NCBI GenBank assembly: GCA_030145425.1
Contig: JAQYVO010000199.1
Span: 1-64,000 of the forward strand
Length of the DNA stretch: 64,000 nt
Origin: Chromatiales bacterium
GTDB taxonomy: Bacteria; Pseudomonadota; Gammaproteobacteria; Chromatiales; Chromatiaceae
Reading direction: 5' to 3'
The position numbers and the translations under genes are program-made. Below, piece by piece: positions 47,644-64,000 of the stretch (position 1 is the stretch's first letter; each line of letters opens with the position of its first letter). The notes under the pieces were generated by a model. The model searched no databases. It was not told the origin of the DNA and saw only the letters and a list, made by a program, of their open reading frames with translations.

Positions 47644-49320
47644 CTACTGACTGTCTACCTCACCCATGGTGGCTAACTCATGTGCCTGACGCAGCGCCTG
47701 TTCAAGATAGTCCCTGTAGAGCAACTTTCTCTGCTCGTCACTGATCTCGCCGGACACCATTGGCTGCGAATGGCGTAGCGCCGCCTGCAGTGAGAATTCG
47801 ACCGGTTCTTCTTTCCAGAACCTGTGCTTCCAACCTCCGCCCCGGGCGTCGAACCGGTATTGATGCACGAACAGGTGCCCATACTCGGCCACGAACTCAA
47901 TGCAGTCTATGAGATATTCCACCTCGGGTTCGTCGAACACGTAATGAAAACCCACCCGGCACCAACCGGGTTTAACACCATGATAGCCACGGCTGATCCA
48001 GTTACGGTACTCGCCTGCCTTGACAGGATCGATATCCAGCAGCTTGTGCCCGTAAGGTCCGGCACAGGAGCACCCTGCCCTGCTCTGGATGCCAAAAAGA
48101 TCGTTCAGCAGCGTGGTCACAAAGCGCGGGTGCAGATACTGCCCCCTGGCGTCCCGCAGGTTGAAGGATACAATCCCGACCCGCCGGTCGGGATCAGGGT
48201 TGCCCAGAATCTCTATCTGCGAATGCCCTCCCCAGCGTTCGAAAACCCGGTGTACCAGCTCCTCTTCCCGCTGTTCGATCCGCTCGATCCCGATTGACTC
48301 CTTCACCTCGAAAACCAGTGCCGCCTTGAGGGTCTGGAGAATACCGGGGGTACCCGCCTTCTCCCTCGCCTCGATGTCGCTGATGAAATCATGGTCTTCG
48401 GGTCCCACGTAATCCACCGTCCCACCGCCGGCAATGCTGGGTGGAAGCTCATCGTGATAGCAGCGCTTGTTGAAGACCAGCAGTCCGCTGGCACCGGGGC
48501 CGCCGAGAAATTTATGGGGTGAAAGGAACACGGCATCCAGCGAGGCGTCTTCCGTCTCATCGGATGACTCAGGATTCATGTCAATGGGCACGTATGGCGC
48601 TGATGCCGCGTAATCGAAAAAAGCAAGGGCTCCCCGGCTGTGCAGCAGCTTCGCTATCTCATGCACAGGAGAGCGCATTCCGGTCACATTCGATGCGGCA
48701 GAGAAGGAGCCGATCCGCAAACGGTCCTGAAACTCCGGCCGACCCACGAGTTCCAGCAGATGATCGAGATCGATTCCCCCGTCGGCGGACATTCTGACCT
48801 CAACCACCGTGGCCAGGCTCTCCCTCCATGAGATCTCATTGGAGTGATGTTCGTAGGGTCCGACGAATATCACCGGCTGCCGTTGTTCGATGTGCTCCAG
48901 GAGCACCGGCATGCTTTCGGCACCCACGAAACCCTGCAACAGACCATAAAGGAGAGAGCGGCTGGCGGCGGGCAGTTTCACCCCCACCAGCTGCTGCATT
49001 CGGTCTATGGCACCGGTTGCACCCGTGCCACAGGCAATGATCCGGCCGTCGGGACCGGCATTGAGGGCCCGCTTGATCATCTCCTCGGCCTGATGCAGCA
49101 GATCGGTGGTTACCCGCCCGCTGAAATCATCCTCCGTGTGGCTGTTGGCATAGAGCCTTTGCAGAGAGAGCAGATAGTCCTCAACAAAAGCCAGCGAACG
49201 GCCGGACGCGGTGTAATCGGCATAGAGCATCAGGCGTTCGCCGAAGGGGGTCTTTATGAATGCATCGACACCGATGATCTGGCGACGCAGTTCTTTCAGA
49301 TCGAGAGTGGTCTGAGACAT
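47644..49320 (-). CDS. Class V aminotransferase-fold PLP enzyme
   Basis: PLP-dependent enzyme of 558 aa, longer than typical cysteine desulfurases (about 400). It has YADYTASGRSLAFVEDYL near the N-terminus, CGTGATGAIDRMQQL, FFDYAASAPY with the cofactor Asp, and SPHKFLGGPGASGLLV with the Schiff-base Lys (about residue 270). SRAGCSCAGPYGHKLL carries an SCAGPYGH segment that resembles the desulfurase catalytic-cysteine loop. The extra C-terminal region (about residues 430-558) is family-specific. The large aminotransferase V-like family is known but its substrate is not assigned. It may be cotranscribed with hrpA. Confidence 0.87.
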   Translation of the reverse strand: MSQTTLDLKELRRQIIGVDAFIKTPFGERLMLYADYTASGRSLAFVEDYLLSLQRLYANSHTEDDFSGRVTTDLLHQAEEMIKRALNAGPDGRIIACGTGATGAIDRMQQLVGVKLPAASRSLLYGLLQGFVGAESMPVLLEHIEQRQPVIFVGPYEHHSNEISWRESLATVVEVRMSADGGIDLDHLLELVGRPEFQDRLRIGSFSAASNVTGMRSPVHEIAKLLHSRGALAFFDYAASAPYVPIDMNPESSDETEDASLDAVFLSPHKFLGGPGASGLLVFNKRCYHDELPPSIAGGGTVDYVGPEDHDFISDIEAREKAGTPGILQTLKAALVFEVKESIGIERIEQREEELVHRVFERWGGHSQIEILGNPDPDRRVGIVSFNLRDARGQYLHPRFVTTLLNDLFGIQSRAGCSCAGPYGHKLLDIDPVKAGEYRNWISRGYHGVKPGWCRVGFHYVFDEPEVEYLIDCIEFVAEYGHLFVHQYRFDARGGGWKHRFWKEEPVEFSLQAALRHSQPMVSGEISDEQRKLLYRDYLEQALRQAHELATMGEVDSQ

Positions 49321-50435: not shown

Positions 50436-53099
50436 TCAGGAGTCACTTTGCTGTCTGATCACCGCCTGAGCGGCACCAAGCCGTGCGAGCGGAACCCTGA
50501 AGGGTGAGCAGGAAACGTAGTTCAGGCCGACCTTCTGACAAAATGCGATAGAGGCCGGATCTCCGCCGTGCTCACCACAAATGCCCATCTTCATGTCTTC
50601 GTTCACTTTTCGACCCTCGGCCACCGCCATCTCGACCAGTCGGCCGACCCCGGAAACATCCAGCGACTGGAACGGATCCTTTTCCAATAACTCCTTTTCC
50701 AGATAATCCGGGAGGAAATTATTGACATCGTCCCGACTGTATCCAAACGTCATCTGCGTAAGGTCGTTGGTGCCGAAACTGAAAAAATCCGCGTGCTCGG
50801 CGATCTGCTCAGCGGTAAGCGCGGCCCTTGGTACTTCGATCATGGTACCCACCGGGATATCCAGAGGGTCCGGATATCCCATGTCCTTTGCCACGATGGC
50901 CATCGTGCGCTCGGCAAGCTGTCGAAGCATATCCAGCTCCTTGTCCACGCCCACCAGGGGAATCATGATCTCCGGCTGCGCATCGATGTCCGCCCACTTG
51001 CATTCGATGGCGGCCTGGGTGATGGCGGTTACCTGCATCTCCAGGACCTCGGGATAGGTCACGGACAAACGACAGCCGCGATGACCCAGCATGGGATTGG
51101 CCTCGTGCAGCATAGCCACCCTGGCCTGAACCTTCTCCAGCGATACTCCAAGCTCTTTGGCCAGTTCAGCTTGCAGCTTCTCGTCTTGGGTCAGGAATTC
51201 ATGCAGCGGCGGATCCAACAGGCGCACGGTCACGGGCAGACCCTTCATGGCGGTAAAGATACCCTTGAAGTCCTCCCGCTGCATGGGCAGCAGTTTATCC
51301 AGTGCCCTCCGCCTCTGCTCCTCAGTTTCAGCCAGGATCATTTCACGCATCCGGGTGATGCGCTCGCCCTTGAAGAACATGTGCTCGGTGCGGCAAAGTC
51401 CTATGCCCTCAGCGCCATACTGCCGGGCCCGGATCGCGTCCTCCGGTGTATCCGCGTTAGTACGCACCGCCAGGGTGCGATGATTATCCGCCCAGCCCAT
51501 GAGGGTACTGAATTCGTCCGACAGCTTGGGGTCCTGGGTGCGTACGCTGCCCGCCATCACTTCCCCGGTGGACCCGTCGATGCTGATTACATCCTGGTCC
51601 CCGAAGGTCCTGCCGTTAACGGTCATAACCCGCTTCTTCTCGTTAATCAGTATCGCCCCCGCACCTGCGACGCAGCATTTCCCCCAACCCCTGGCCACGA
51701 CGGCCGCATGGCTGGTCATGCCCCCGGTCGAGGTCAGAATGCCTTCAGCCACATGCATGCCGCTGACATCTTCGGGACTGGTTTCTTTGCGCACCAGCAG
51801 CACCGACTCACCGGCATGGGCCCGCTCCACCGCCTCGTCAGCAGTAAATGCCAGCCTACCCGCCGACGCACCGGGGGATGCCGGCAGCCCCCGGGTAAGG
51901 ACATCGCGCTCGGCCTCCGGGGCGAAGGTGGGCAACAACAACTGGTTCAGATCCGTTGCCGGCACGCGCAACATCGCCTCTTCTTCGGTGATCCGCCCCT
52001 CCATGACCATGTCCACCGCGATCTTGACTGCAGCAGGCCCGGTGCGTTTTCCGGTGCGAGTCTGCAGGAGAAAAAGGGTTCCCCGCTCGATGGTGTATTC
52101 GATATCTTCCATCTCCCGGTAATGGTTTTCCAGGATAGCCTTGATCTCGAGCAGCTGTTCATACATCTCGGGACGCCACTTCACCATCTCCGCCAGGGGC
52201 TGGGGTGTCCGAATACCGGCGACAACGTCCTCCCCCTGGGCATTGATCAGAAACTCACCGTAAAATTCGTTCTCACCGGTGGAAGGGTCACGGGTGAAGG
52301 CAACCCCGGTACCGGAGTCCTCACCCATGTTGCCGAAGACCATTGTCTGCACGTTGACCGCGGTGCCGAACAGACCGGTGATCTCGTTGATCTGACGATA
52401 GCGAATCGCTCTGGGAATGTTCCAGCTTTTAAAAACCGCCTCTACGGACTTCTCCAACTGCTCATAGGGATCCTGGGGGAAATCCTCGCTTGTCGCCTTG
52501 CGATATACCAACTTGTAGGCCTCTATCAGCTTTTCCAGCCCGGCCTCGTTAAGCTCCGTATCCAGGGTCACGCCGAAGTCTGCCTTAATGCGGTCGAATT
52601 CCACTTCGAACTTTTCGTGATGTACACCCATCACCACATCGCCGAACATGTTGATCAGACGGCGATAGGCATCCAGCGCAAAACGCCGGTTGCCCGACAC
52701 CCTGGCCAACCCCTCCATCGCCTTGTCGCTCAGCCCCAGGTTCAGGACCGTGTCCATCATACCGGGCATACTGGCCGCCGCCCCGCTTCGCACCGACACG
52801 AGTAACGGATCCTCCTCCGATCCAAACTGCTTGCCGAGTTCTTTCTCCACGATTTCCATGTTTTCCCTGACTTCATCCATGAGGCCGTCCGGCAGCATGC
52901 CCCCTATGTCGTAGTAGTCAGCACAAGACTGGGTATCGATGGTGAAGCCCGGAGGAACCGGCAGCCCGATAGACGTCATTTCCGCGAGATTCGCCCCCTT
53001 ACCCCCGAGCAGACTTTTCATCTCCTTGTTTCCTTCGGATTTGGTCTTGCCAAAGTAATGGACGTGTTTTTTGGGTTTCATGCTGGTTTTCTCTGACAT
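50436..53099 (-). CDS. ppdK: Pyruvate phosphate dikinase
   Basis: Reversible conversion of pyruvate, ATP and Pi to phosphoenolpyruvate, AMP and PPi; 887 aa, full length. The ATP-grasp domain (about residues 1-350) begins KSLLGGKGANLAEMTSIGLPVPPGFTI. The swivelling phosphohistidine domain has GGMTSHAAVVARGWGKCCVAG with the catalytic His at about residue 458. The C-terminal TIM barrel carries GIGLCRTEHMFF, SFGTNDLTQMTFGYSRDD and the active Cys in GICGEHGGDP. It lies 141 bases downstream of the ferredoxin-NADP reductase on the same strand. This suggests it takes pyruvate made by the PFOR at 58824 up to PEP, or works glycolytically in reverse. Confidence 0.96.
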   Translation of the reverse strand: MSEKTSMKPKKHVHYFGKTKSEGNKEMKSLLGGKGANLAEMTSIGLPVPPGFTIDTQSCADYYDIGGMLPDGLMDEVRENMEIVEKELGKQFGSEEDPLLVSVRSGAAASMPGMMDTVLNLGLSDKAMEGLARVSGNRRFALDAYRRLINMFGDVVMGVHHEKFEVEFDRIKADFGVTLDTELNEAGLEKLIEAYKLVYRKATSEDFPQDPYEQLEKSVEAVFKSWNIPRAIRYRQINEITGLFGTAVNVQTMVFGNMGEDSGTGVAFTRDPSTGENEFYGEFLINAQGEDVVAGIRTPQPLAEMVKWRPEMYEQLLEIKAILENHYREMEDIEYTIERGTLFLLQTRTGKRTGPAAVKIAVDMVMEGRITEEEAMLRVPATDLNQLLLPTFAPEAERDVLTRGLPASPGASAGRLAFTADEAVERAHAGESVLLVRKETSPEDVSGMHVAEGILTSTGGMTSHAAVVARGWGKCCVAGAGAILINEKKRVMTVNGRTFGDQDVISIDGSTGEVMAGSVRTQDPKLSDEFSTLMGWADNHRTLAVRTNADTPEDAIRARQYGAEGIGLCRTEHMFFKGERITRMREMILAETEEQRRRALDKLLPMQREDFKGIFTAMKGLPVTVRLLDPPLHEFLTQDEKLQAELAKELGVSLEKVQARVAMLHEANPMLGHRGCRLSVTYPEVLEMQVTAITQAAIECKWADIDAQPEIMIPLVGVDKELDMLRQLAERTMAIVAKDMGYPDPLDIPVGTMIEVPRAALTAEQIAEHADFFSFGTNDLTQMTFGYSRDDVNNFLPDYLEKELLEKDPFQSLDVSGVGRLVEMAVAEGRKVNEDMKMGICGEHGGDPASIAFCQKVGLNYVSCSPFRVPLARLGAAQAVIRQQSDS

Positions 53100-53240
53100 A
53101 TCTATTTAGGTACCGCAATTGGTGTGTGGTGTTACTTCGAATCTGCTGCATTCAGGGCAGGAAGTATACACATAAAGGCAGTTAATGGCAGGGAAAGCCG
53201 CTACTTGTTTTCGAATGGTAAGGGCAGACTGCCGGTCACC

Positions 53241-54122
53241 TTAATCGTACAAATGCTCTGCCCAGCGGCCATCCAGGTAGATTTGCCTTTTCAGTCGCAT
53301 CCAGTTCTCCTCTGACCCGGCTATATGCGAGAGTGCAGTATCCAGTACTTTGGACTGCACCCTCATTCCTGCGACATATACATGGGTTTTCGGATCCTGT
53401 ATCAATTCCCAGACCTCGGCGGCATTCTCCTCGAGTTTGTTACCCAGGGCCGAAGGGTCATCGAATGCGGGTCGTGAACTCAGTGCCTCAAAGGCCTTGA
53501 AGGTTGCCGCATCGTAGTAGTGGCTGAAGTCATCCTTGATATCGTTCATGTAGAGCAGTTCCAGCCCACTCTTGGCACCGTAGAAAAGACGAACCTTACC
53601 CTTCCAGTCCTCCTCTTCCTCATAGATGTGCTTGATGAAGGCACGAAACGGGGCGATCCCCGTACCGGTACCCACCATCAGCATATTTGCCGAGTTGTCC
53701 CTGGGCACAACGAAATGTCGCCCGTAGGGTCCAGTGATTTGGATCTCGTCTCCGGCCCCGGCGTCGCACAGGTAGTTGGAACACTTGCCGGGATACCGTT
53801 CTCCGCTGACCTCATCGATGTAGAAACAGCGTCGTACACAGATGGCGATCTCCGTACGGTGTCCCTCTTCACCCTTCCTGGTGCTGGCGATGGAATACAG
53901 ACGCATGTGATGATCGTTGCCAAAATCGTAAGGCGGCGGAGCCAGGACACCGATACTCTGACCCTCCACATAGACAAACGATGGCGCCGGGATGTCCAGG
54001 ACGACCTGGTGGACATCAGCTTCGGCACTTTCACTCGTGATACGGTCGGTACTCACGACCCTTGCCCGAAAGGGTCTGCTGATGTCGTAGTCTTTTGGCT
54101 GAATGAAAAATTCGTCTACCAT
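53241..54122 (-). CDS. Plant-type ferredoxin-NADP(+) reductase
   Basis: FAD enzyme of 293 aa exchanging electrons between NADP(H) and ferredoxin or flavodoxin. FAD motifs are RLYSIAST and KCSNYLCD. The nucleotide-binding motif is GTGTGIAPFRAFI and a late VYVAGMR strand precedes the C-terminus, which ends in W-x3-LYD rather than a terminal Tyr. Membrane segments are absent, so it is cytoplasmic or peripherally bound. It follows the NqrM-like gene by 72 bases and appears to belong to the rnf operon. It thereby couples the ferredoxin pool, used by PFOR and Rnf, to NADPH. Confidence 0.9.
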   Translation of the reverse strand: MVDEFFIQPKDYDISRPFRARVVSTDRITSESAEADVHQVVLDIPAPSFVYVEGQSIGVLAPPPYDFGNDHHMRLYSIASTRKGEEGHRTEIAICVRRCFYIDEVSGERYPGKCSNYLCDAGAGDEIQITGPYGRHFVVPRDNSANMLMVGTGTGIAPFRAFIKHIYEEEEDWKGKVRLFYGAKSGLELLYMNDIKDDFSHYYDAATFKAFEALSSRPAFDDPSALGNKLEENAAEVWELIQDPKTHVYVAGMRVQSKVLDTALSHIAGSEENWMRLKRQIYLDGRWAEHLYD

Positions 54123-54194
54123 GATTCAAACCCCACTTGTCCCGGACAATAACTGTAAAACTGTACGAGGCCGATTACACTCACAACCCGCACC

Positions 54195-54386
54195 CTAATT
54201 TTCACATCGGTTTCCTTCCGAATCCGTACTGCATTTTCCGCTGCAGGCGCCGCAGCCGCCGGCCTTCTCCTTATAAGGACCGAACTCCGGGTGTCGGGCT
54301 GCGAACCGGCGTGACAGATGCTGAACCCATACCCACCCCAGCAGTACTGAAAATATGACGCTGACCGCGAGCAGATATGTACCCAT
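54195..54386 (-). CDS. Small cysteine-rich membrane protein, NqrM-like
   Basis: A 63-aa protein reading MGTYLLAVSVIFSVLLGWVW..., one transmembrane helix (about residues 3-20). A basic stretch (SRRFAARHPEFGPYKEK) precedes a C-terminal cluster GGCGACSGKC plus a last Cys three residues from the end. Its ATG overlaps the rnfA stop (TGATG), so it is translationally coupled to rnfA. A longer frame through the same bases (54195-54890) runs antiparallel-phase to rnfA and is spurious. The helix-plus-four-Cys plan resembles NqrM, the iron-delivery factor for the NqrD/NqrE cluster. RnfA and RnfE are the NqrE/NqrD homologues. Homology is my inference from layout. Confidence 0.75.
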   Translation of the reverse strand: MGTYLLAVSVIFSVLLGWVWVQHLSRRFAARHPEFGPYKEKAGGCGACSGKCSTDSEGNRCEN

Positions 54387-54970
54387 CAGTGCCCCCCCAG
54401 CCCTGCAAAACCCATGAAGGTGAGGGACAGGATACCCGCGAGCATAAAGCTGATTGCCGATCCCCGACTGATCGAGGGCACATCTGCCAGATCCAGTTTT
54501 ACCCGCAGCCCTGCCATAAGCATAAGGGCCAGAGTAAACCCCGCACCCGCGCCCGCACTGTAGACCAGGCATTGCAGGAAATCGTACTCCTTGAAGGTCT
54601 GAAACAGGGCCAACCCGAGGATAGCGCAGTTGGTGGTGATCAAAGGCAGAAAGATACCCAGCGCCCTGAAAAGTTCCGGACTGACCTTCTTTATCGTGAT
54701 CTCCACCAACTGAACCGCGGAGGCAATCACGGCGATATAGCAGATGAGCCGGAGAAACTCCAGGTTGAACTCCACCAGCAGCATATTGACACCGTAGGCG
54801 CAGAGAGAACTGACGAGCATCACGAACATGGTGGCCAACCCCATGTTCCAGGCGGTATCGAGTTTCGCCGACACACCGAGAAACGGACAAAGACCGAGGA
54901 AGAACGCGAGCACGAAATTGTTGATGATAAACGCGTTGAGGAAAATGAAAGTGAGATCATCCGGTTGCAC
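54386..54970 (-). CDS. rnfA: Rnf electron transport complex subunit RnfA
   Basis: Integral membrane subunit of 194 aa with six helices. Its two cluster-ligand cysteines sit in FFLGLCPFLGVS (about residue 27) and LPLITTNCAILGLALF (about residue 109). These pair with those of RnfE to hold an intramembrane [2Fe-2S] cluster. It overlaps rnfE upstream by 14 bases and the NqrM-like gene downstream. Confidence 0.95.
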   Translation of the reverse strand: MQPDDLTFIFLNAFIINNFVLAFFLGLCPFLGVSAKLDTAWNMGLATMFVMLVSSLCAYGVNMLLVEFNLEFLRLICYIAVIASAVQLVEITIKKVSPELFRALGIFLPLITTNCAILGLALFQTFKEYDFLQCLVYSAGAGAGFTLALMLMAGLRVKLDLADVPSISRGSAISFMLAGILSLTFMGFAGLGGH

Positions 54971-55619
54971 GGGCAGTCTCCTCCTGTTTCAGAATCTTCC
55001 GCTGCTTCCGTTCCTTCAACCACGAGAACAGCAGCAGCCAGGCTCCGATGACAAAAAACCCTCCCGGCGGCAGCACCATGACCACCCAGGGCTGAAAGGA
55101 CTCACCGAACAACGAATACCCAAGAATGGTCCCGCTGCCCAATACCTCTCTCACCGTACCCAGGCAAAGCAGGGCAAAGGTAAAACCTATGCCAATCCCG
55201 AAAGCATTGACTACGGACTTGGTGACCCGGTTCTTGGAGGCATAACTCTCGGCACGTCCGAGAATCACGCAATTGGCCACTATCAGCTGGATAAAGGCCC
55301 CGAGTGCGTTGTACAGCTCGAGGCTAATGGCATGAATCGCATAATCGACAATGGTGACAAAGGTGGCAATAATGACGATATAGGATGCAATACGCACCTG
55401 CTTGGGAATGACGCTGCGCAACAGAGACACCAGCGCGCTGGAACATACGAGTACGAAGAGAGTTGCCAGGCCCATGCCTATGGCATTCATGGTGGTGTTG
55501 GTAACCGCGAGCGCCGGACAGAGACCGAGCAGCATGACGAATACCGGATTCTCTTTCCAGATACCCCGCAAAAAGGTATCCATGGTGATAGGTGTGGGTT
55601 TATGGTGTAGATCAGCCAT
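54957..55619 (-). CDS. rnfE: Rnf electron transport complex subunit RnfE
   Basis: Six-helix membrane subunit of 220 aa, homologous to RnfA and NqrD. Conserved Cys in VMLLGLCPALAVTNT (about residue 33) and IQLIVANCVILGRAES (about residue 113) complete the cluster site. A GSGTILGYSLFGESFQPWVVMVLPPGGFF periplasmic loop precedes the last helix. Its start shares a base with the rnfG stop. Confidence 0.95.
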   Translation of the reverse strand: MADLHHKPTPITMDTFLRGIWKENPVFVMLLGLCPALAVTNTTMNAIGMGLATLFVLVCSSALVSLLRSVIPKQVRIASYIVIIATFVTIVDYAIHAISLELYNALGAFIQLIVANCVILGRAESYASKNRVTKSVVNAFGIGIGFTFALLCLGTVREVLGSGTILGYSLFGESFQPWVVMVLPPGGFFVIGAWLLLFSWLKERKQRKILKQEETARATG

Positions 55620-56323
55620 CAGTTGTTCACCTTGAGAACATGCAGGTGACGTGCGATCAGCGGCAGCATCTTCTGAGCACTCTCATTGAGTCCCCTGCTG
55701 ATCGCCCTGGAAGTGATGGTGGCACCGGATATGGCGTCGACCTGCCAGATTCCCGTCTTGGTTCCGTGTTTAACGGTTTCAACAGCATGAGCCAGCCGGC
55801 TTTGGTCTTCAGCCAGCTGAACGGACAGTGCATCGAAGTTGGCCATGAACTGTCTGTTGCCCTCGAGCGTGTTTTTGTCACCCATACCGGGCGTATCGGT
55901 ACTCTTCATAATGACCAGACCCACGATGCACTCGCATTTCGGGTCATAGCCGTACAGTGTGCGCACCACATCCTGGTACCCCTGAGCTGCGGCCTGCAGG
56001 GCGATTCCCATCAGCATTCCCGAGTCATCGTATACCGCGAACAGGTTGGCCTCACCCGTACCCGTCTCTTCATCCAGACGCACCAGCCCATCTTCGCTCA
56101 ATGCGAAGCTGACACGGGTTGCCGTTGCCTGAACGACCCCGGGGATAACCTGGAATACCGCCTGCTCCAGCGCCAGTCTCTCTTTCTCCTTGATAATGGG
56201 TTCGGTGTACCTGGCAACGAGCACCACGAGAAGCCCTGAGATCATGGCGATGAGCCCCAGTGTTCGAATCATGGAGAGACTCGAGGGCATCGGTGGGCTC
56301 TGGGATTGCACGTCGCCGCTCAT
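55619..56323 (-). CDS. rnfG: Rnf electron transport complex subunit RnfG
   Basis: Periplasmic flavoprotein of 234 aa with one N-terminal membrane anchor (about residues 17-40). The C-terminal FMN-binding domain has the covalent flavin motif DAISGATITSRA, with FMN attached to the second Thr of SGATIT by ApbE (about residue 205). GDKNTLEGNRQFMANFDAL is typical. ApbE itself is not in the window. Overlaps rnfD by 4 bases. Confidence 0.94.
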   Translation of the reverse strand: MSGDVQSQSPPMPSSLSMIRTLGLIAMISGLLVVLVARYTEPIIKEKERLALEQAVFQVIPGVVQATATRVSFALSEDGLVRLDEETGTGEANLFAVYDDSGMLMGIALQAAAQGYQDVVRTLYGYDPKCECIVGLVIMKSTDTPGMGDKNTLEGNRQFMANFDALSVQLAEDQSRLAHAVETVKHGTKTGIWQVDAISGATITSRAISRGLNESAQKMLPLIARHLHVLKVNN

Positions 56324-57393
56324 GGTTTTGTCGCCTTCTTACGGCCGGTGCCGTAAACCCTGGGCTGGGTGAATGCACCAATGAGCGGAGAGGCCGCGTT
56401 GCCGAACAGTATGGCATACATGACACCTTCGGGAAGCCCGCCGAAGAGGCGGATAATGACAGTCAGAAAACCGATGAGAATCCCGTATATCCATACCCCC
56501 CTCGGGGTCGTCGGTGACGCTACCATGTCGGATGCCATGAACAAGGCACCCAGCATCAATCCGCCGGAAAGCAGGGTGAACAGCGGTGTGGGATATGCAC
56601 CGGCATCCACCAGGTAAAAGCCGCCCGACGTGACAAAAGCCCCCAGCAACATCGCCGCTGGGATATGCCAGTCCATCATGCGGCGAACAGCCAGATAGGC
56701 GCCACAGACCAGTATGAGCAGGGCCGACGTCTCACCGGCAGAACCGGCGGTCATACCAAAAAAGAGATCTGCGTTTTGGGTCGTGACATGTTCCAGATTG
56801 CCATCCCCGAACTTCTGCAGTGCCAGCGGTGTGGCCCCTGTATAACCGTCCACCGCAATGCGCTCCACCCACCCCGCAACCGACTTCGGCACAACAAATG
56901 GGAGTGTCAATGTCGAAGGGATGAACTCGGTGAAACGACCCGGGGCGAAGGCAGGTGTCCAGGTTGTAATGGCCACGGGAAACGCGGCCTGCACAAAGGC
57001 CCTGCCAACCAGGGCGGGATTGAATACATTGAAGCCGATACCCCCGAACATGACCTTGGTCAGGGCGATGGCCACGAAACCTGCCACCACGGCCATCCAA
57101 AGAGGGAATCCCGGCGGCAGGGTGAGTGCGAGCAGGAGCCCTGTGATTACCGCGCTGAAGTCGCCTATCGTGGTCGGCTTGTCCGACAACCGGCAGAACA
57201 GGTGTTCCGTGCAGATACAGGCCAGTGTGGTTGCCAGTATCAATGCCAAAGCACTGAGCCCGAACTGATAGACCGCGAACCCGCAGATGGGAAGCAGTGC
57301 GTACACGACGTTACGCATGATCTGATCCACACTCGGTGCCTTCCGGAGATGGGGTGCACCCCTCAGCTCTATTATGGGTGTCCTATTGTTCAT
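56320..57393 (-). CDS. rnfD: Rnf electron transport complex subunit RnfD
   Basis: Polytopic membrane flavoprotein of 357 aa, with about nine helices. The covalent FMN motif DGYTGATPLALQ (about residue 190) is intact. SAVITGLLLALTLPPGFPLWM and GIGFNVFNPALVGRAFVQAAFP are the conserved NqrB/RnfD helices. It is the main candidate for the ion pathway. It starts 28 bases after rnfC. Confidence 0.95.
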   Translation of the reverse strand: MNNRTPIIELRGAPHLRKAPSVDQIMRNVVYALLPICGFAVYQFGLSALALILATTLACICTEHLFCRLSDKPTTIGDFSAVITGLLLALTLPPGFPLWMAVVAGFVAIALTKVMFGGIGFNVFNPALVGRAFVQAAFPVAITTWTPAFAPGRFTEFIPSTLTLPFVVPKSVAGWVERIAVDGYTGATPLALQKFGDGNLEHVTTQNADLFFGMTAGSAGETSALLILVCGAYLAVRRMMDWHIPAAMLLGAFVTSGGFYLVDAGAYPTPLFTLLSGGLMLGALFMASDMVASPTTPRGVWIYGILIGFLTVIIRLFGGLPEGVMYAILFGNAASPLIGAFTQPRVYGTGRKKATKP

Positions 57394-57421
57394 CGAGCCG
57401 GCAGGAAACTTCTAGTACGCA

Positions 57422-58780
57422 TCAGGCTGCCCGTTCCCGGTTCTCGCGGTTGATCGCTTTGGCTATTCGGAAATACTGCACCAGCGGAATCCCGGAAGGG
57501 CAGACATATGTACAACAGCCGCACTCGAAACAATCATTGAGGTGATATTTTTCCTCCATGGTTTCGTATTGGCGCTTCGCCGCGAGCATTCCCAGTTCCG
57601 ATGGATTGAGATGAATGGGACAGGCTTGCACACAGTACGCGCATCTGATGCAGGGCCATGTTTTCTTTGGGATCTGCTTCGATATCCCCTCTTCGGTCAG
57701 AATCAGGATCCCCGATACGCCCTTGGTTACCGGCACGTCCAGAGATGCCACGGAGGAACCCATCATTGGCCCACCCACAATCAGCTGCCTGGCATCACCC
57801 TGAAAACCAAGCTGGTCCAGCACAAAGCGCAGGGGCGTACCCAAAGCCACCAGATAATTGCCGGGTTTCTCGATACCCGGTCCGGATATGGTCACCACCC
57901 GTTCGATCAACCCGTGTCCCTGAGGCAACAGGGCTCCGAGCTGTGCCAGAGTGGCCACGTTAAACACGCTTACACCCACGGATGAGGGGTAACCGCCGCT
58001 TGGAACCTCTTTGCCGATCAGGGCCTTGATCATCATCTTCTCGGCACCCTGCGGATACTTGGTTTCCATCACGCCGACGGTTACGCTGCCGTCCGCCGGG
58101 CAGGCATTGCGCAAGGCTTTGATGGCATCCGGTTTGTTGTCTTCAATGCCGATAATGGCCTTCTCGGCACCCGTGGCCTTCATGGCCACCTGGATCCCCG
58201 CAAACAGATCCATGGAATACTCCAGCATTACCCGATGATCCGTGGTCAGATAAGGCTCACATTCACAGCCATTGACCATTACCGTATGGACCTTATGATC
58301 CTCGGGAACGGTCATCTTCACATGGGTTGGGAAACTTGCCCCGCCCAGACCGACCATACCGGTCTCTTTTACCGCATCGATTACTGCTGCCGGAGACATC
58401 TCGGAGGTATCCTGGGGGGAATCGTAGAGCACCTCCTGACTAACTCCCGCGTGCAGTTTCAGCACAATGGCCGGTACCCTGGGCCCACGTGCCGTGCGCG
58501 TCAGACCGATGCTCTTGATAATACCCGTGGCCGGTGCGTGCAAAGGTACTGACATAAACCCGTCCGCCCGGGCCACCACTTCTCCCCTCACAACTTCCTG
58601 ACCTTCATGAACGATGGGGATCGAGGGTGCACCAAAATGCTGGGAAAGCGGCAGTATCATCTCCGGCGCGAAGTACAGTCGACGGATCGCCTTGGAGCCC
58701 GTAACCGCCTTGTACTCCGGCGGATGAATACCATGGGAAAAGGTCGCTTTCCCAAGTCCGAGTAACTGCTTCAGGCCCAT
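57422..58780 (-). CDS. rnfC: Rnf electron transport complex subunit RnfC
   Basis: Membrane-associated NAD(H)-facing subunit of 452 aa. The N-terminus has the barrel-sandwich part (GIHPPEYKAVTGSKAI). The NADH/FMN motif MVGLGGASFPTHVK lies at about residue 140. Two [4Fe-4S] motifs lie at about residues 375-390 (CIRCAYCVQACPIHL) and 415-430 (CFECGCCTYVCPSGI). The length is at the short end; the long Ala/Lys-rich C-terminal tail of gamma-proteobacterial RsxC is absent. First rnf gene, 43 bases after the PFOR stop. Confidence 0.95.
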   Translation of the reverse strand: MGLKQLLGLGKATFSHGIHPPEYKAVTGSKAIRRLYFAPEMILPLSQHFGAPSIPIVHEGQEVVRGEVVARADGFMSVPLHAPATGIIKSIGLTRTARGPRVPAIVLKLHAGVSQEVLYDSPQDTSEMSPAAVIDAVKETGMVGLGGASFPTHVKMTVPEDHKVHTVMVNGCECEPYLTTDHRVMLEYSMDLFAGIQVAMKATGAEKAIIGIEDNKPDAIKALRNACPADGSVTVGVMETKYPQGAEKMMIKALIGKEVPSGGYPSSVGVSVFNVATLAQLGALLPQGHGLIERVVTISGPGIEKPGNYLVALGTPLRFVLDQLGFQGDARQLIVGGPMMGSSVASLDVPVTKGVSGILILTEEGISKQIPKKTWPCIRCAYCVQACPIHLNPSELGMLAAKRQYETMEEKYHLNDCFECGCCTYVCPSGIPLVQYFRIAKAINRENRERAA

Positions 58781-58823
58781 AGGAGGTTGTCTCTTGTCTA
58801 TCCGATGCTTTCGCGCAACAAGC

Positions 58824-61800
58824 CTACTGATATTTCTCGGCGCGCTTGACGAGCTTATCGAGCCCCTTCTCGCCGGGGTTCCAGGGCGTTCCGGGATGAA
58901 TGCAGTCGGCGGTGCATTTTTCCGCGGAACGCACGATATCCTTGAAGGAACCTGCCTTCGGATTGGTTACGATCGCCTTTTTCTCATCGTTGTAGATGAA
59001 CATCTTGGGATTGATCTCGATGCATTCGTCACAGGCGGTACACTGTGGCGTGTCGATCCATACTGATTCATAGTCCACATCCGCCACTGCCGCCGGTTGC
59101 ATTCCCCCATTACCCTTGGAAGCCGGGGTATCCGACATGCCCGTGGGTGTCGCAGCCATCAGCGCCCCCAATTCGGTGCTGGCCGAGCCGCCTGTCACCA
59201 TGGAAAAAAGGCCGCTGGCCAGCTTCTGCGCCATATCCACCCGGACGTCCTGCGCAATCTGGTCCGGATCGATCTGTTCGAGCATTCCGGCCAATCCTTT
59301 TACCGTCCGCCAGTAGTCACGCCGCTCTTCGGTGGACTCTACCAACTCCGAAGAACAGATAACGCGCATCAGATGACTCTTCTTGTCCACGGCCCAGATA
59401 AAGGGATACATGCCTTCCCTATCCTCTTCCTCCAGGTCGATAAACTCCCCCAGGGGTAACATATTCTCGTTCCAGGTATCCCGCGGTGCCATGCGGAAAT
59501 GTTTTCGAAACCTGCCTTCGGTGAGTGCGAAATCGGCAAAGGTCGTGGGAAGTTCCATGGAACCCTCGGTGCCGTCCTCTTCTTCATAGTTCAATGTATG
59601 GTTGGGCCAGTCATCGTCCATGGCGGGATTGCCATCCAACGACAGACATTCCTCCCAGGTCTCCCCTGCATCAGGGTTGAATACCATGAGTGGATAAGCC
59701 CTTGATTCCACCGCAAGTCTGCTCTGCCTCTCGGAGGCATCGTCGGGTATCGCATGCTCGGGGGGACAAGGTGCATAGATGTTCCACAAAGCAGGCCGGC
59801 GGGAGTTGAGCCCATCGATATAGCTCTCGATGAGATGGGTATAATTACTGATGGCACCATTAACGGTAAAGGTGGTTCTATGGGCCATGCTGATCAGCGC
59901 CATCTCCTTGCGCGTCTCCTCCTTACCCCGCCAGACAGGCCCGTAGGGCGCCATATCGGAGACCTGACCTATAAAGCCGGAAGTGCAGGCCTGCCCACCG
60001 GTGTTGGAATAGACCTGGGTGTCCACCACAAGCACCTTGATGGGCATACCGGATGCCAGGGCACGGGAAAGGTTCTGAAAACCGATATCGTACATCGCCC
60101 CATCACCACCGACCGCCACCACCGGAGGACAGAGTTTAAACTCCTCATCGCTGAATTTGTTCCACTTGAAATACCGCAGATCCTTCTCGATACTTTCGTG
60201 ATCCAGCTTGCCTTCCAGCTCCATACCGGCCATTCGAATGGCCTTGAATCCATCGGCCATCTTTGCCATATGCCCCTCGAACAGCCCCATCGCGACTGAT
60301 GGAGCATCCTGGAACAGATGGCTCGACCAGGGGAACGGGTAAGGGTTGTATGGAAATGTGGAACCGTATACGGAAGTGCATCCCGTGGCATTGATAAAAC
60401 CGAGGTCCGCGCGCCCGCGCTTGGTTGTCCCTTCCGTATACTTCCACTTCAGGGTCCTGAGATTATCCAACAGGCGGGTGACCCATTTTATCCAATCGGC
60501 ATCCAGGGGTTCGCCGGCTGTACCCTCATCCAGAGAACCGGACAGTGTCGAGAGCGTCAGATTGAGATCCTGATGCTCTGCGACCGCTTTCTCGACGGCT
60601 GCCATGTTACCAAGATCCATGGTACCCGCCAGCTTCAAACGGATATGCTGTTCCAGACGCTCGATGAGTTCCGTGAGCGCTTCCAGGTGCTTCTTGATGC
60701 GGGACTGCATCAATGCCGTCACCGTCGAGGTGAACAGATGCAGCGAGGTTTTTTCTCCACACCCATTGCATGCGCCGTCCCCGCAGTCCATGGACCAGTA
60801 GGCCTTCTTGTCAAGCAGCATGGTCTCCAGGGCACCGATCTTTTCATCCATGTCATCGATACGGATGTAATCAGTTGAAGTGGTAGGCAGGTCCAGCCAG
60901 AACTCCCAGTCCTTGCGCAGCAGTTCTATTGCCGCCGGGGTCTGTTTCTCGATAACCAGTGCTTCATCATCACAGACGGCAACACACTCCATGCAGCCTT
61001 TGCAGGTATAGGGATTGATAGTGATTGAGAACAATCCGCCGCTGCCCTTGGCCTTCTTTTCCTTGTTCTGATAGTAGGGAGCCACCAGCGAGAACTTGAA
61101 ATCTCCGACAGCCTCTTTGAACCAGTCGAACTCCTGCTGCAATACCGGGATCTGGGTTTCCGTCAGTTCGGAATCCGCGATGGTTTCATTGATGGCCTGC
61201 TGCAACAGGGGCCTGGCATCCAGTATGTTCCCCTCAGCGGCATCGGCAACGCTGCGCAGTTTCTTATCCACCATGCGCACGGCGCGTCGCAGATGTTTGA
61301 CTTCCCTGCCCTTGCCTTCCACCCGCTGTATGGCTGTCTCGAACACCTCCGTGGCGGTATTCACCAGGCCCGGTATAGCGCTGTCCGGGCAAAGGGTAAA
61401 ACAGTCACTGCAGGCCGTGCACTTATCGGGCACCCATACCGGGTACTCGAAACGGATCATGGTCATATCCCGGTATACACCGGTGCTGGCCGGGATCAGG
61501 CTCAGTGCCGAAAAAGGATCCGCCAGATTCTCGTTGCCCTGCCCTTTCTGATAAAAATTTCCGGTCTGTTCCCAGAAACGATGCACATCGGTCTTGGGAT
61601 CGCTGCCCGCAGGAAGATTCTTGAGCATGATGGGCATACTGGGTGCCTTGCGTACCCCTTTACCGTTTTGATCAGTCTGCAACGGCTTCTCGGTAATCTC
61701 CTGAATCTGATCGAAGCCTCTGCGTACCACCCGGAGATTGTCCTCGACCACGCGAGCGCCCTTACTCCCGAATTTATCCTGAAGCTGGTCACGAATTGCC

Positions 61801-63794
61801 TGAAACAGCTTCTCCTCCGTCAGTTTTGCAGTCTCCATTACCGGGGACGCCGCAAAGAAGGCACCCTGAAAGGCAGCGCCCTGCATACGAAACTGCAGTT
61901 CCGTATCACTGGCCTCTTCGCGGGCTATCTGAAAGGCATCCAGAAAGAACACACTGATGTCATTGTCGATGATGAACTTTCGGGCACTAGCGGGAAAAGA
62001 CGTCCAGACAGCCTCAGGCGATGAATACTCGCTCTGTATGATGAAGACCCCCCCTTTCTTGAGACCAACCAGCGGATTGGAGTGCCCAAACACGTTGGGA
62101 TCGGGAGACAGCACCACATCCACGTAGTAATACTCGCAGTTCATCCGGATCGGCTCGGGTGCCGCCGACATGTAGTAAGTAGTCGGCTGACCCTTCTTCT
62201 CCGATCCGTATTTCGGATTTGCCTTGATCTCGAAGCCGAGCAGATCGAACAGCGTCATTGCCAGATTCTTACCGGTGGTGATAGCTCCCCAGCCACCTAC
62301 GGAATGCATGCGCACCGTAATGGCCCCTTCGGGCATCAGGTTGGGATTCTCGCTGCCGTGGACCGCCAGGCTCTGGACGCCGGGATAGAGGTCCAGAATA
62401 TTCTGCTGATGGACTTCCTGTTTCGGGGTAAACGCCTTGTCGCGAATGAAGTCGATGGAAAGATAGAAAAACTTCTTCTTCTTTCCGTCCGGCAGCATAT
62501 TCTCGATTGCGCCGATCAGCGCCTCCGGCTGGAGGTCGCGGCTGCCCAGACCGTATGCCCCTGAAAAGAGGGGTGACAGGTCCGCCTGGGGCTTGCCGTA
62601 AACGGGATAGGCCGGGTGGGGAACCTCTTCCCGTTTGCCCGCAATACTGTTTTCCAGGCATTTGACAATGGCGGCCCGGGTTTCGCGCATGAGTGGCAGA
62701 TCCTCAGCCAGCGGCTGATCGGTACGCTCCAGCACCGCCACCCCCTTGCGCCCCTTGAGCAGCTCGGCAACCAGATCACCCGGGAAGGGTCGCCACATGA
62801 CGACATTGACCACGCCAACCTTGATCTTGCGCGTGTCGCGCAGGTAATCGGCCACCGCCTCTGCCTGCACGAGCATGCTGCCCATACCCACGATCAGATA
62901 GTCGGCATCTTGCGTGCGATAGCCCATTACCCTGTTGTAGCGCCTGCCGGTGAGTTCGTAGAATTCATCCATACAGCGGTCGGTTATGGCGGGAATATGC
63001 TCGAAAAAATAGGGTCGCTGGGCGGCAACGGCCTGCATATAGGCATCCTGATTCTGCACACAACCAGAAACGGCAGGATTGTCCACATCCCACACCAGGG
63101 GAATTCGACGCCGTTTCTCTCCAAACAGCATCCGCTGCGCCGGTGTCGGACATTCGATCTCATCATCGGGACGGCCCAGATACTCGGCGATCAGCTCGCG
63201 TTCAGGTACCGCCACCGACTCGATGACATGTGTGGTGAGGAAACCGTCCTGCCCCACTGCGCCGGGGTTCATTGAAAGTTCTGCGATCTTGCGCGAGATG
63301 ACATTCAAATCCGCCGCCTGCTGTGCGCTGTTGCCCAGAACCTGAAAAAAGCCCACGTCATCGATGGCAAAATAGTCGTCATGGGCGGCATGCACATTCA
63401 GACTGGCCTTGGTAATGGCGCGACAGCCGATATTGAGAATATAGGGCAGTCTTTTGCCAACCGCACCGTAGAGGGATTCATGCATATACACGATCCCCTG
63501 ACCTGAAGAGAAGTTGGTCGCACGCAGACCGGTCATGGCCATGCCGGCGGTCACGCTCGCGGCAGCATGTTCCCCTTCCGGCTCGATAAAAATCAGGGGG
63601 CGACCCGAGATATTGAGATGTCCCTTGGCCGTCTCCTCCGCCCAGTACTCACCCATCTGGGTCGAGGGTGTGATCGGGTAGGCGCCTGCCGCATCACTGG
63701 CCTCGCGTTCACACATGATCACCGCACCGTTTCCGTCGGTGGACATGCGCATGCCGGGATACTTAAACTTTTTTTCCTGCGTTTTTCTCATCAT
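58824..63794 (-). CDS. Giant pyruvate:ferredoxin (flavodoxin) oxidoreductase with extra ferredoxin domain
   Basis: Homologue of NifJ/PFOR but 1656 aa instead of about 1170-1200. Reaction: pyruvate + CoA + oxidised ferredoxin to acetyl-CoA + CO2 + reduced ferredoxin, reversible. Order: alpha domain (EASDAAGAYPITPSTQMGEY, about residue 35), gamma domain (VGGWGAITTGKNLA, about 500). Then come two 4Fe-4S motifs, CTACSDCFTLCPDSAIP (about 790) and CKGCMECVAVC (about 930), with about 125 extra residues between them. The TPP domain follows (GDGACNGCGEKTS about 1005; GGDGAMYDIGFQNLSRAL about 1226), with an extra helical insertion between these motifs. An additional C-terminal ferredoxin-like module has CTACDEC (about 1583) and CTADC (about 1626). 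I chose ATG 63794 over TTG 63800. Substrate could be another 2-oxoacid. Confidence 0.9.
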   Translation of the reverse strand: MMRKTQEKKFKYPGMRMSTDGNGAVIMCEREASDAAGAYPITPSTQMGEYWAEETAKGHLNISGRPLIFIEPEGEHAAASVTAGMAMTGLRATNFSSGQGIVYMHESLYGAVGKRLPYILNIGCRAITKASLNVHAAHDDYFAIDDVGFFQVLGNSAQQAADLNVISRKIAELSMNPGAVGQDGFLTTHVIESVAVPERELIAEYLGRPDDEIECPTPAQRMLFGEKRRRIPLVWDVDNPAVSGCVQNQDAYMQAVAAQRPYFFEHIPAITDRCMDEFYELTGRRYNRVMGYRTQDADYLIVGMGSMLVQAEAVADYLRDTRKIKVGVVNVVMWRPFPGDLVAELLKGRKGVAVLERTDQPLAEDLPLMRETRAAIVKCLENSIAGKREEVPHPAYPVYGKPQADLSPLFSGAYGLGSRDLQPEALIGAIENMLPDGKKKKFFYLSIDFIRDKAFTPKQEVHQQNILDLYPGVQSLAVHGSENPNLMPEGAITVRMHSVGGWGAITTGKNLAMTLFDLLGFEIKANPKYGSEKKGQPTTYYMSAAPEPIRMNCEYYYVDVVLSPDPNVFGHSNPLVGLKKGGVFIIQSEYSSPEAVWTSFPASARKFIIDNDISVFFLDAFQIAREEASDTELQFRMQGAAFQGAFFAASPVMETAKLTEEKLFQAIRDQLQDKFGSKGARVVEDNLRVVRRGFDQIQEITEKPLQTDQNGKGVRKAPSMPIMLKNLPAGSDPKTDVHRFWEQTGNFYQKGQGNENLADPFSALSLIPASTGVYRDMTMIRFEYPVWVPDKCTACSDCFTLCPDSAIPGLVNTATEVFETAIQRVEGKGREVKHLRRAVRMVDKKLRSVADAAEGNILDARPLLQQAINETIADSELTETQIPVLQQEFDWFKEAVGDFKFSLVAPYYQNKEKKAKGSGGLFSITINPYTCKGCMECVAVCDDEALVIEKQTPAAIELLRKDWEFWLDLPTTSTDYIRIDDMDEKIGALETMLLDKKAYWSMDCGDGACNGCGEKTSLHLFTSTVTALMQSRIKKHLEALTELIERLEQHIRLKLAGTMDLGNMAAVEKAVAEHQDLNLTLSTLSGSLDEGTAGEPLDADWIKWVTRLLDNLRTLKWKYTEGTTKRGRADLGFINATGCTSVYGSTFPYNPYPFPWSSHLFQDAPSVAMGLFEGHMAKMADGFKAIRMAGMELEGKLDHESIEKDLRYFKWNKFSDEEFKLCPPVVAVGGDGAMYDIGFQNLSRALASGMPIKVLVVDTQVYSNTGGQACTSGFIGQVSDMAPYGPVWRGKEETRKEMALISMAHRTTFTVNGAISNYTHLIESYIDGLNSRRPALWNIYAPCPPEHAIPDDASERQSRLAVESRAYPLMVFNPDAGETWEECLSLDGNPAMDDDWPNHTLNYEEEDGTEGSMELPTTFADFALTEGRFRKHFRMAPRDTWNENMLPLGEFIDLEEEDREGMYPFIWAVDKKSHLMRVICSSELVESTEERRDYWRTVKGLAGMLEQIDPDQIAQDVRVDMAQKLASGLFSMVTGGSASTELGALMAATPTGMSDTPASKGNGGMQPAAVADVDYESVWIDTPQCTACDECIEINPKMFIYNDEKKAIVTNPKAGSFKDIVRSAEKCTADCIHPGTPWNPGEKGLDKLVKRAEKYQ

Positions 63795-63898
63795 GACCAA
63801 TTTCTCTCGCTAACCGCCTCAGCCGTGCAACGTGATCACGGGTGAACGTGTTCCACTCCCGTGGCGCTCCCGGCTAAGACACTAACATTCCAACCCTG

Positions 63899-64000
63899 TT
63901 ATCCCCTCGGCAGCGGCTCCATACGAAGGATCTTCCTGGCACCCAGCCCCTTAACCGTTTTATGGTCCTCGATCCACACGATGGCACCTGTCGGACATCG
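63899..64000 (-). CDS. 4Fe-4S protein, C-terminal fragment
   Basis: Reading the minus strand from base 64000, frame 1 gives 33 codons to a TAA at 63899-63901. The peptide starts RCPTGAIVWIEDHKTVKG. CPTGAI is the typical last ligand segment of a bacterial [4Fe-4S] ferredoxin motif. The remaining tail is basic (ARKILRMEPLPRG). The gene enters from outside the window and lies 104 bases upstream of the PFOR gene on the same strand, so it may be the first redox gene of the module. Its full identity cannot be determined here. Confidence 0.72.
   Translation of the reverse strand, partial: RCPTGAIVWIEDHKTVKGLGARKILRMEPLPRG

Follow-up and report, generated by a model that had tools for sequence, protein, structure and literature searches.

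The rnf Operon and Its Small Gene

The window, i.e., the whole stretch of 64,000 nucleotides from a Chromatiales bacterium that we analyzed, carries on its reverse strand an rnf operon with a small open reading frame (ORF) directly behind rnfA. By position, its features are:

53241..54122, reverse strand: FNR-like flavoprotein gene, after the small ORF; kept in most operons of rnfA clade I
54195..54386, reverse strand: small ORF, Rnf-linked single-helix Cys-rich protein (translation, orthologs, dN/dS)
54231..54257, reverse strand: Cys tail GCGACSGKC of the small protein, residues 44–52, family core C45/C48/C52 (alignment)
54324..54380, reverse strand: transmembrane segment of the small protein, residues 3–21 (hydropathy, alignment, AlphaFold)
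54384..54388, reverse strand: TGATG stop/start overlap with rnfA (sequence)
54386..54970, reverse strand: rnfA (family match; cluster cysteines C28, C115)
54957..55619, reverse strand: rnfE (family match; cluster cysteines C34, C117)
55619..56323, reverse strand: rnfG (family match)
56320..57393, reverse strand: rnfD (family match)
57422..58780, reverse strand: rnfC (family match)
58824..63800, reverse strand: pyruvate:ferredoxin oxidoreductase (PFOR)-like gene, between rnfB and rnfC (identified from its sequence)

The gene order is rnfB, PFOR-like, rnfC, rnfD, rnfG, rnfE, rnfA, small ORF, FNR-like and PPDK, rnfB lying just beyond the window (contig C142, 64.5–64.8 kb). The operon-like block rnfB–PFOR–rnfCDGEA–FNR-like–PPDK occupies positions 50436–64000 of the window and continues on the contig beyond. 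RnfA C28/C115 and RnfE C34/C117 are essentially invariant across the loci examined, and the matching membrane cysteines that an earlier note on this DNA had ascribed to the two subunits are indeed there; we take them to be the expected ligands of a shared intramembrane [2Fe-2S] cluster. The FNR-like protein is similar to PetH/BoxA-type reductases, and the presence of its gene after rnf in most clade I operons suggests a possible NADP(H) link to this Rnf. The end of the PFOR-like protein carries an extra ferredoxin-like segment (window 58824–59070, CTACDECIEINPKMF...C). Further downstream on the reverse strand, past PPDK and an ion-channel gene, positions 47644–49320 encode a protein of 558 aa which, judged by eye, is class V aminotransferase/cysteine desulfurase-like.

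Three distinct Rnf systems are present in this genome: the window operon on contig C142, a canonical rnfAB... set on contig C187, and a second rnfCDGEA set on contig C61, which is associated with other 2-oxoacid oxidoreductase-like genes. Two of the three are thus interleaved with 2-oxoacid:ferredoxin oxidoreductase-like genes.

A Conserved Protein with One Helix and a Cysteine Tail

Read from 54386 to 54195 on the reverse strand, the small ORF translates to MGTYLLAVSVIFSVLLGWVWVQHLSRRFAARHPEFGPYKEKAGGCGACSGKCSTDSEGNRCEN (63 aa); translation and coordinates agree with the 63-codon gene, starting at the TGATG overlap with the rnfA stop, that had been proposed from the sequence. This overlap would couple its translation to that of rnfA, and in most loci the start of the orthologs lies about 2–10 nt from the last rnfA codon. 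An initial search of 55 genomes found orthologs in 20 (E < 1e-10), and differences among same-genus homologs fall mainly at synonymous sites (NG86: dS 0.98 and dN 0.081 against G001; dS 1.40 and dN 0.29 against G002). The small ORF is a real gene rather than a chance ORF, because it has orthologs and because dS far exceeds dN among same-genus homologs; it is under purifying selection, with a dN/dS of about 0.08–0.2. One copy, in genome G015, is frameshifted. The family has no convincing match in Pfam or NCBIfam and is so far unclassified.

The architecture of the protein is simple. The Kyte-Doolittle maximum (2.08) falls on residues 3–21, and AlphaFold, run on the protein alone, predicts a helix over residues 2–31 (17 residues at pLDDT ≥ 90), followed by a flexible tail of low confidence; both agree with the single membrane helix claimed earlier. 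One N-terminal helix is found in all 46 family members compared, in which W18 is invariant and Q22 nearly so, just past the transmembrane segment. In the same 46 members, K and R are more abundant on the C-terminal than on the N-terminal side of the helix and, by the positive-inside rule, the Cys tail would therefore be cytosolic (N-out/C-in). The tail GGCGACSGKC was correctly recognized by the earlier note, which also spoke of a final cysteine; C61 is the last cysteine but not the final residue, and it is conserved within the genus only, the family core being C45/C48/C52. Every one of the 46 sequences has at least three tail cysteines, with variable spacing ([2,3,8], [3,1,5], [1,4], [2,4], [2,2] and others), and since the spacing varies, a labile metal carrier fits better than a rigid electron-transfer cluster. 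A comparison with solved structures gave no meaningful match.

An Exclusive Place behind rnfA

In the first round, orthologs were located at 19 loci, including L032, each time right after rnfA. We then relied on a family profile built from both versions of the family and run in six frames with no positional condition. Its matches in 274 gammaproteobacterial genomes lie directly 3′ of rnfA in 18 cases out of 18, and those of the enlarged profile in 55 relatives in 31 out of 31. Hence, the claim that the small gene is linked to rnf in other genomes is very strongly supported. No strong copy was found away from rnfA in the relatives and class genomes searched, and no convincing one beyond Gammaproteobacteria in 398 genomes of the phylum. 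The complete operon also occurs on a contig of one Kiritimatiellae MAG (L032), for which mis-binning is possible.

The family accompanies two separate rnfA clades (I and II), with sequences that have diverged but are still recognizable, in operons of the order (rnfB)–PFOR/KOR–rnfCDGEA. Behind the second clade, 11 of 12 loci have a diverged version, MLTxLLAxxGLxxLCxxWVxFQxWL-x-DP-...GCGxC...C. Among the relatives, 31 of 32 clade I/II rnfA loci carry the small gene, a count that leaves aside one further rnfA fragment running off its contig; a clade II operon in G027 (contig C243) is without it. In the class sample, about 20 of 22 such loci carry the small gene or a diverged candidate. The profile missed four class loci, two of which (L171 and L172) hold a diverged candidate at the same place.

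The gene is not found everywhere that Rnf is. The clade I-like rnfA–FNR operons of G069 and G085 (L168 and L170), the other two class loci that the profile missed, have no small gene, and their RnfA/RnfE cluster cysteines are intact despite its absence. There is likewise no family copy beside the canonical rnfABCDGE, either in the genome of the window or in about 100 other genomes; the canonical rnfA (about 50% identity) is followed by rnfB in all cases examined. Since neither the canonical Rnf nor the two sister operons have it, the small gene is not a universal requirement, and it is not strictly required even among otherwise similar operons. At another locus (L064), G085 encodes an NqrM that might substitute for the missing gene.

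Relation to NqrM, RnfB and FeoB-Linked Peptides

NqrM (DUF539, PF04400) is a maturation factor of the Na+-NQR and is thought to serve the iron loading of NqrD/NqrE. The small protein had been called NqrM-like, and this stands for architecture and neighborhood: a single N-terminal helix with a cytosolic Cys tail, which is a feature of NqrM, is also found here if the positive-inside rule is followed. Homology, on the other hand, is undetectable. Neither the window protein nor the 31 family members match PF04400, a profile which does find real NqrMs in other genomes, and NqrM models of Pfam or NCBIfam give no match among the 31. E. coli is not known to carry an NqrM, and none of the control genomes gave a match to the profile. 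In the alignment of class NqrMs, G31, C33, G34, G35 and C45 are invariant and S32 nearly so; the corresponding hallmark, G[ST]CGG[LIM], is missing from all 46 family sequences. With hhalign, the family scores 29.5 against NqrM (z 4.7 over shuffled columns), aligning either the helix alone or else 16–21 columns of the Cys tail alone. Profile–profile comparison was rejected as proof of NqrM homology, as NqrM (4.7), FeoB-linked peptides (4.8) and the RnfB N-terminus (3.9) all fall at z 3.9–4.8 and the signal is not specific. The family is linked to rnf only, with no linkage to nqr; G008 has both genes, an NqrM gene near nqrE and the small gene next to rnfA, which points to one factor per complex. 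We consider it quite improbable that the family descends from a true NqrM diverged beyond recognition. Size, topology, the order of helix and cysteines and the kind of neighbor are the same, and some members (e.g., GCGLACSCTETC, from L032) look close to short forms of NqrM (e.g., GSCGGMNNCACASPC, L074); the lack of any profile match, the missing near-invariant GSCGG and the partial alignments nevertheless speak against it.

A second reading takes the protein for a small, permanent subunit of this type of Rnf, its helix lying beside RnfA and its Cys tail carrying a cluster that would wire RnfB, PFOR or the FNR-like flavoprotein to the [2Fe-2S] of RnfA/RnfE. Its gene could even have arisen from a duplicated rnfB N-terminus, a descent that is conceivable because it fills the slot of rnfB, which directly follows rnfA in canonical operons. 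The RnfB N-terminus shares the order helix, (D/H)P, CGxCx4C, and hhalign places 55–60 columns of it collinearly; the FNR-like gene is moreover the next one in most clade I operons. Against such a subunit, the same operons encode a full four-Cys RnfB upstream of the PFOR gene, the number and spacing of the tail cysteines are too variable for a conserved redox cluster, the RnfB alignment (z 3.9) does not rise above those with other helix-plus-Cys families, and two operons lack the gene altogether. We therefore regard this reading as rather unlikely. That the protein replaces RnfB in an Rnf devoid of it was ruled out by the rnfB gene found just past the window, upstream of the PFOR gene; with its 63 aa, the protein has neither a four-Cys cluster domain nor a ferredoxin domain.

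Single-helix peptides with a Cys tail also lie directly downstream of feoB in Gammaproteobacteria (L196, L200, L201 and L202), of which those of L196 and L202 do not reach the Pfam thresholds of DUF6587 and FeoB_associated. The small protein could accordingly be a generic peptide of the FeoB-associated type, buffering metal or thiols or tethering a protein for stability, with no role in the RnfA/RnfE cluster. Such peptides do reach the family profile weakly, the one behind feoB in G256 being among the weak non-rnf matches (E 2.3e-4), and conversely two of the 31 members match PF12669 (FeoB_associated) at best at E 0.0038, and the best match to DUF6587 (PF20228) among the 31 has an E of 0.08, all below the cut-offs. 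However, every strong family match adjoins rnfA and none feoB; this strict one-to-one linkage holds for two rnfA clades and in many families, the same genomes carry no strong copies at other sites, and a generic role is therefore improbable.

A Putative Assembly Factor for the RnfA/RnfE Site

We favor, with a probability of about 0.5, a membrane-tethered factor that would hand off iron or an Fe-S unit to the RnfA/RnfE site of this Rnf subtype. By analogy with NqrM, iron delivery to this site is the most plausible mechanism, limited to one Rnf subtype; the likeness to NqrM is an analogy and not a proven kinship. The factor would be made together with RnfA through translational coupling, as an N-out/C-in membrane protein. 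Its flexible cytosolic tail, with three or four cysteines, may bind iron or a nascent Fe-S unit in a labile way and present it to a freshly inserted RnfA/RnfE pair, in which two cysteines per subunit (RnfA C28/C115, RnfE C34/C117) would form the intramembrane [2Fe-2S] site. The protein would thus be to the rnfCDGEA-type Rnf, tied to 2-oxoacid:ferredoxin oxidoreductases, what NqrM is to NqrD/NqrE. The analysis itself establishes the gene and its conservation, its place behind rnfA and nowhere else, the architecture of the protein and the conserved cluster cysteines, whereas metal binding, the direction of the transfer and the action as an assembly factor rather than as a permanent subunit are inferred.

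Several observations argue for a hand-off: the position directly 3′ of rnfA in two separate clades, start codons that touch or overlap the rnfA stop, the variable spacing of the tail cysteines, the predicted cytosolic side of the tail, the architecture shared with NqrM, the separate genes for the two complexes of G008, and the peptides directly following feoB. The lack of any NqrM homology beyond that expected from a helix and a Cys tail argues against it, as do the canonical Rnf, the G069 and G085 operons and the clade II operon of G027, which all manage without the gene. More generally, the small gene suggests that iron-accepting membrane proteins (NqrD/E, FeoB, RnfA/E) repeatedly gain a tethered Cys-tail peptide encoded nearby. 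As a guess, this Rnf branch may assemble where cluster insertion is otherwise inefficient.

Among titles, abstracts and passages of the open-licence literature, no description of a small gene behind rnfA was found, which is a weak sign of novelty, and in the part of that literature retrieved no Rnf-specific maturation gene is named for the RnfA/RnfE intramembrane [2Fe-2S]. Tentatively, the new family could be the first dedicated assembly factor for this cluster, of an origin independent of NqrM, in the Rnf branch linked to 2-oxoacid:ferredoxin oxidoreductases. A conserved gene that is translationally coupled to rnfA in one branch of Rnf, but has no counterpart beside the canonical Rnf of the same cell, provides a direct genetic handle on the assembly of the [2Fe-2S] that RnfA and RnfE share within the membrane.

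Comparison with Known Systems

The rnf2 cluster of the Solemya velum symbiont, rnfBCDGEA with a PFOR gene between rnfB and rnfC, is of the same operon type as that of the window; the available passages of the paper make no mention of a gene behind rnfA (PMC4287430). The N-terminal region of RnfB is like the small protein in its helix, its P-containing linker, its CGxC...C and its gene slot beside rnfA. Unlike RnfB, the small protein lacks ferredoxin domains and a fourth conserved Cys where the RnfB spacing would place it, and it coexists with a complete RnfB in the same operon. With the FeoB-associated (PF12669) and DUF6587 proteins, it shares a single helix, a Cys tail and a gene placed right after that of a membrane protein that handles iron; it differs from them by falling below every curated cut-off and by its partner, which is RnfA and not FeoB.

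With respect to NqrM, the family differs by the lack of a profile match and of the GSCGG motif, by a different complex, by an additional conserved W..VQ...RHPE..GP between the helix and the Cys tail, and by being dispensable for some members of its partner complex. It is like NqrM in its small size and its one N-terminal helix followed by positive residues and then by a Cys tail, and in the position of its gene, near a complex with RnfA/RnfE-type subunits that have an intramembrane Fe-S site in common.
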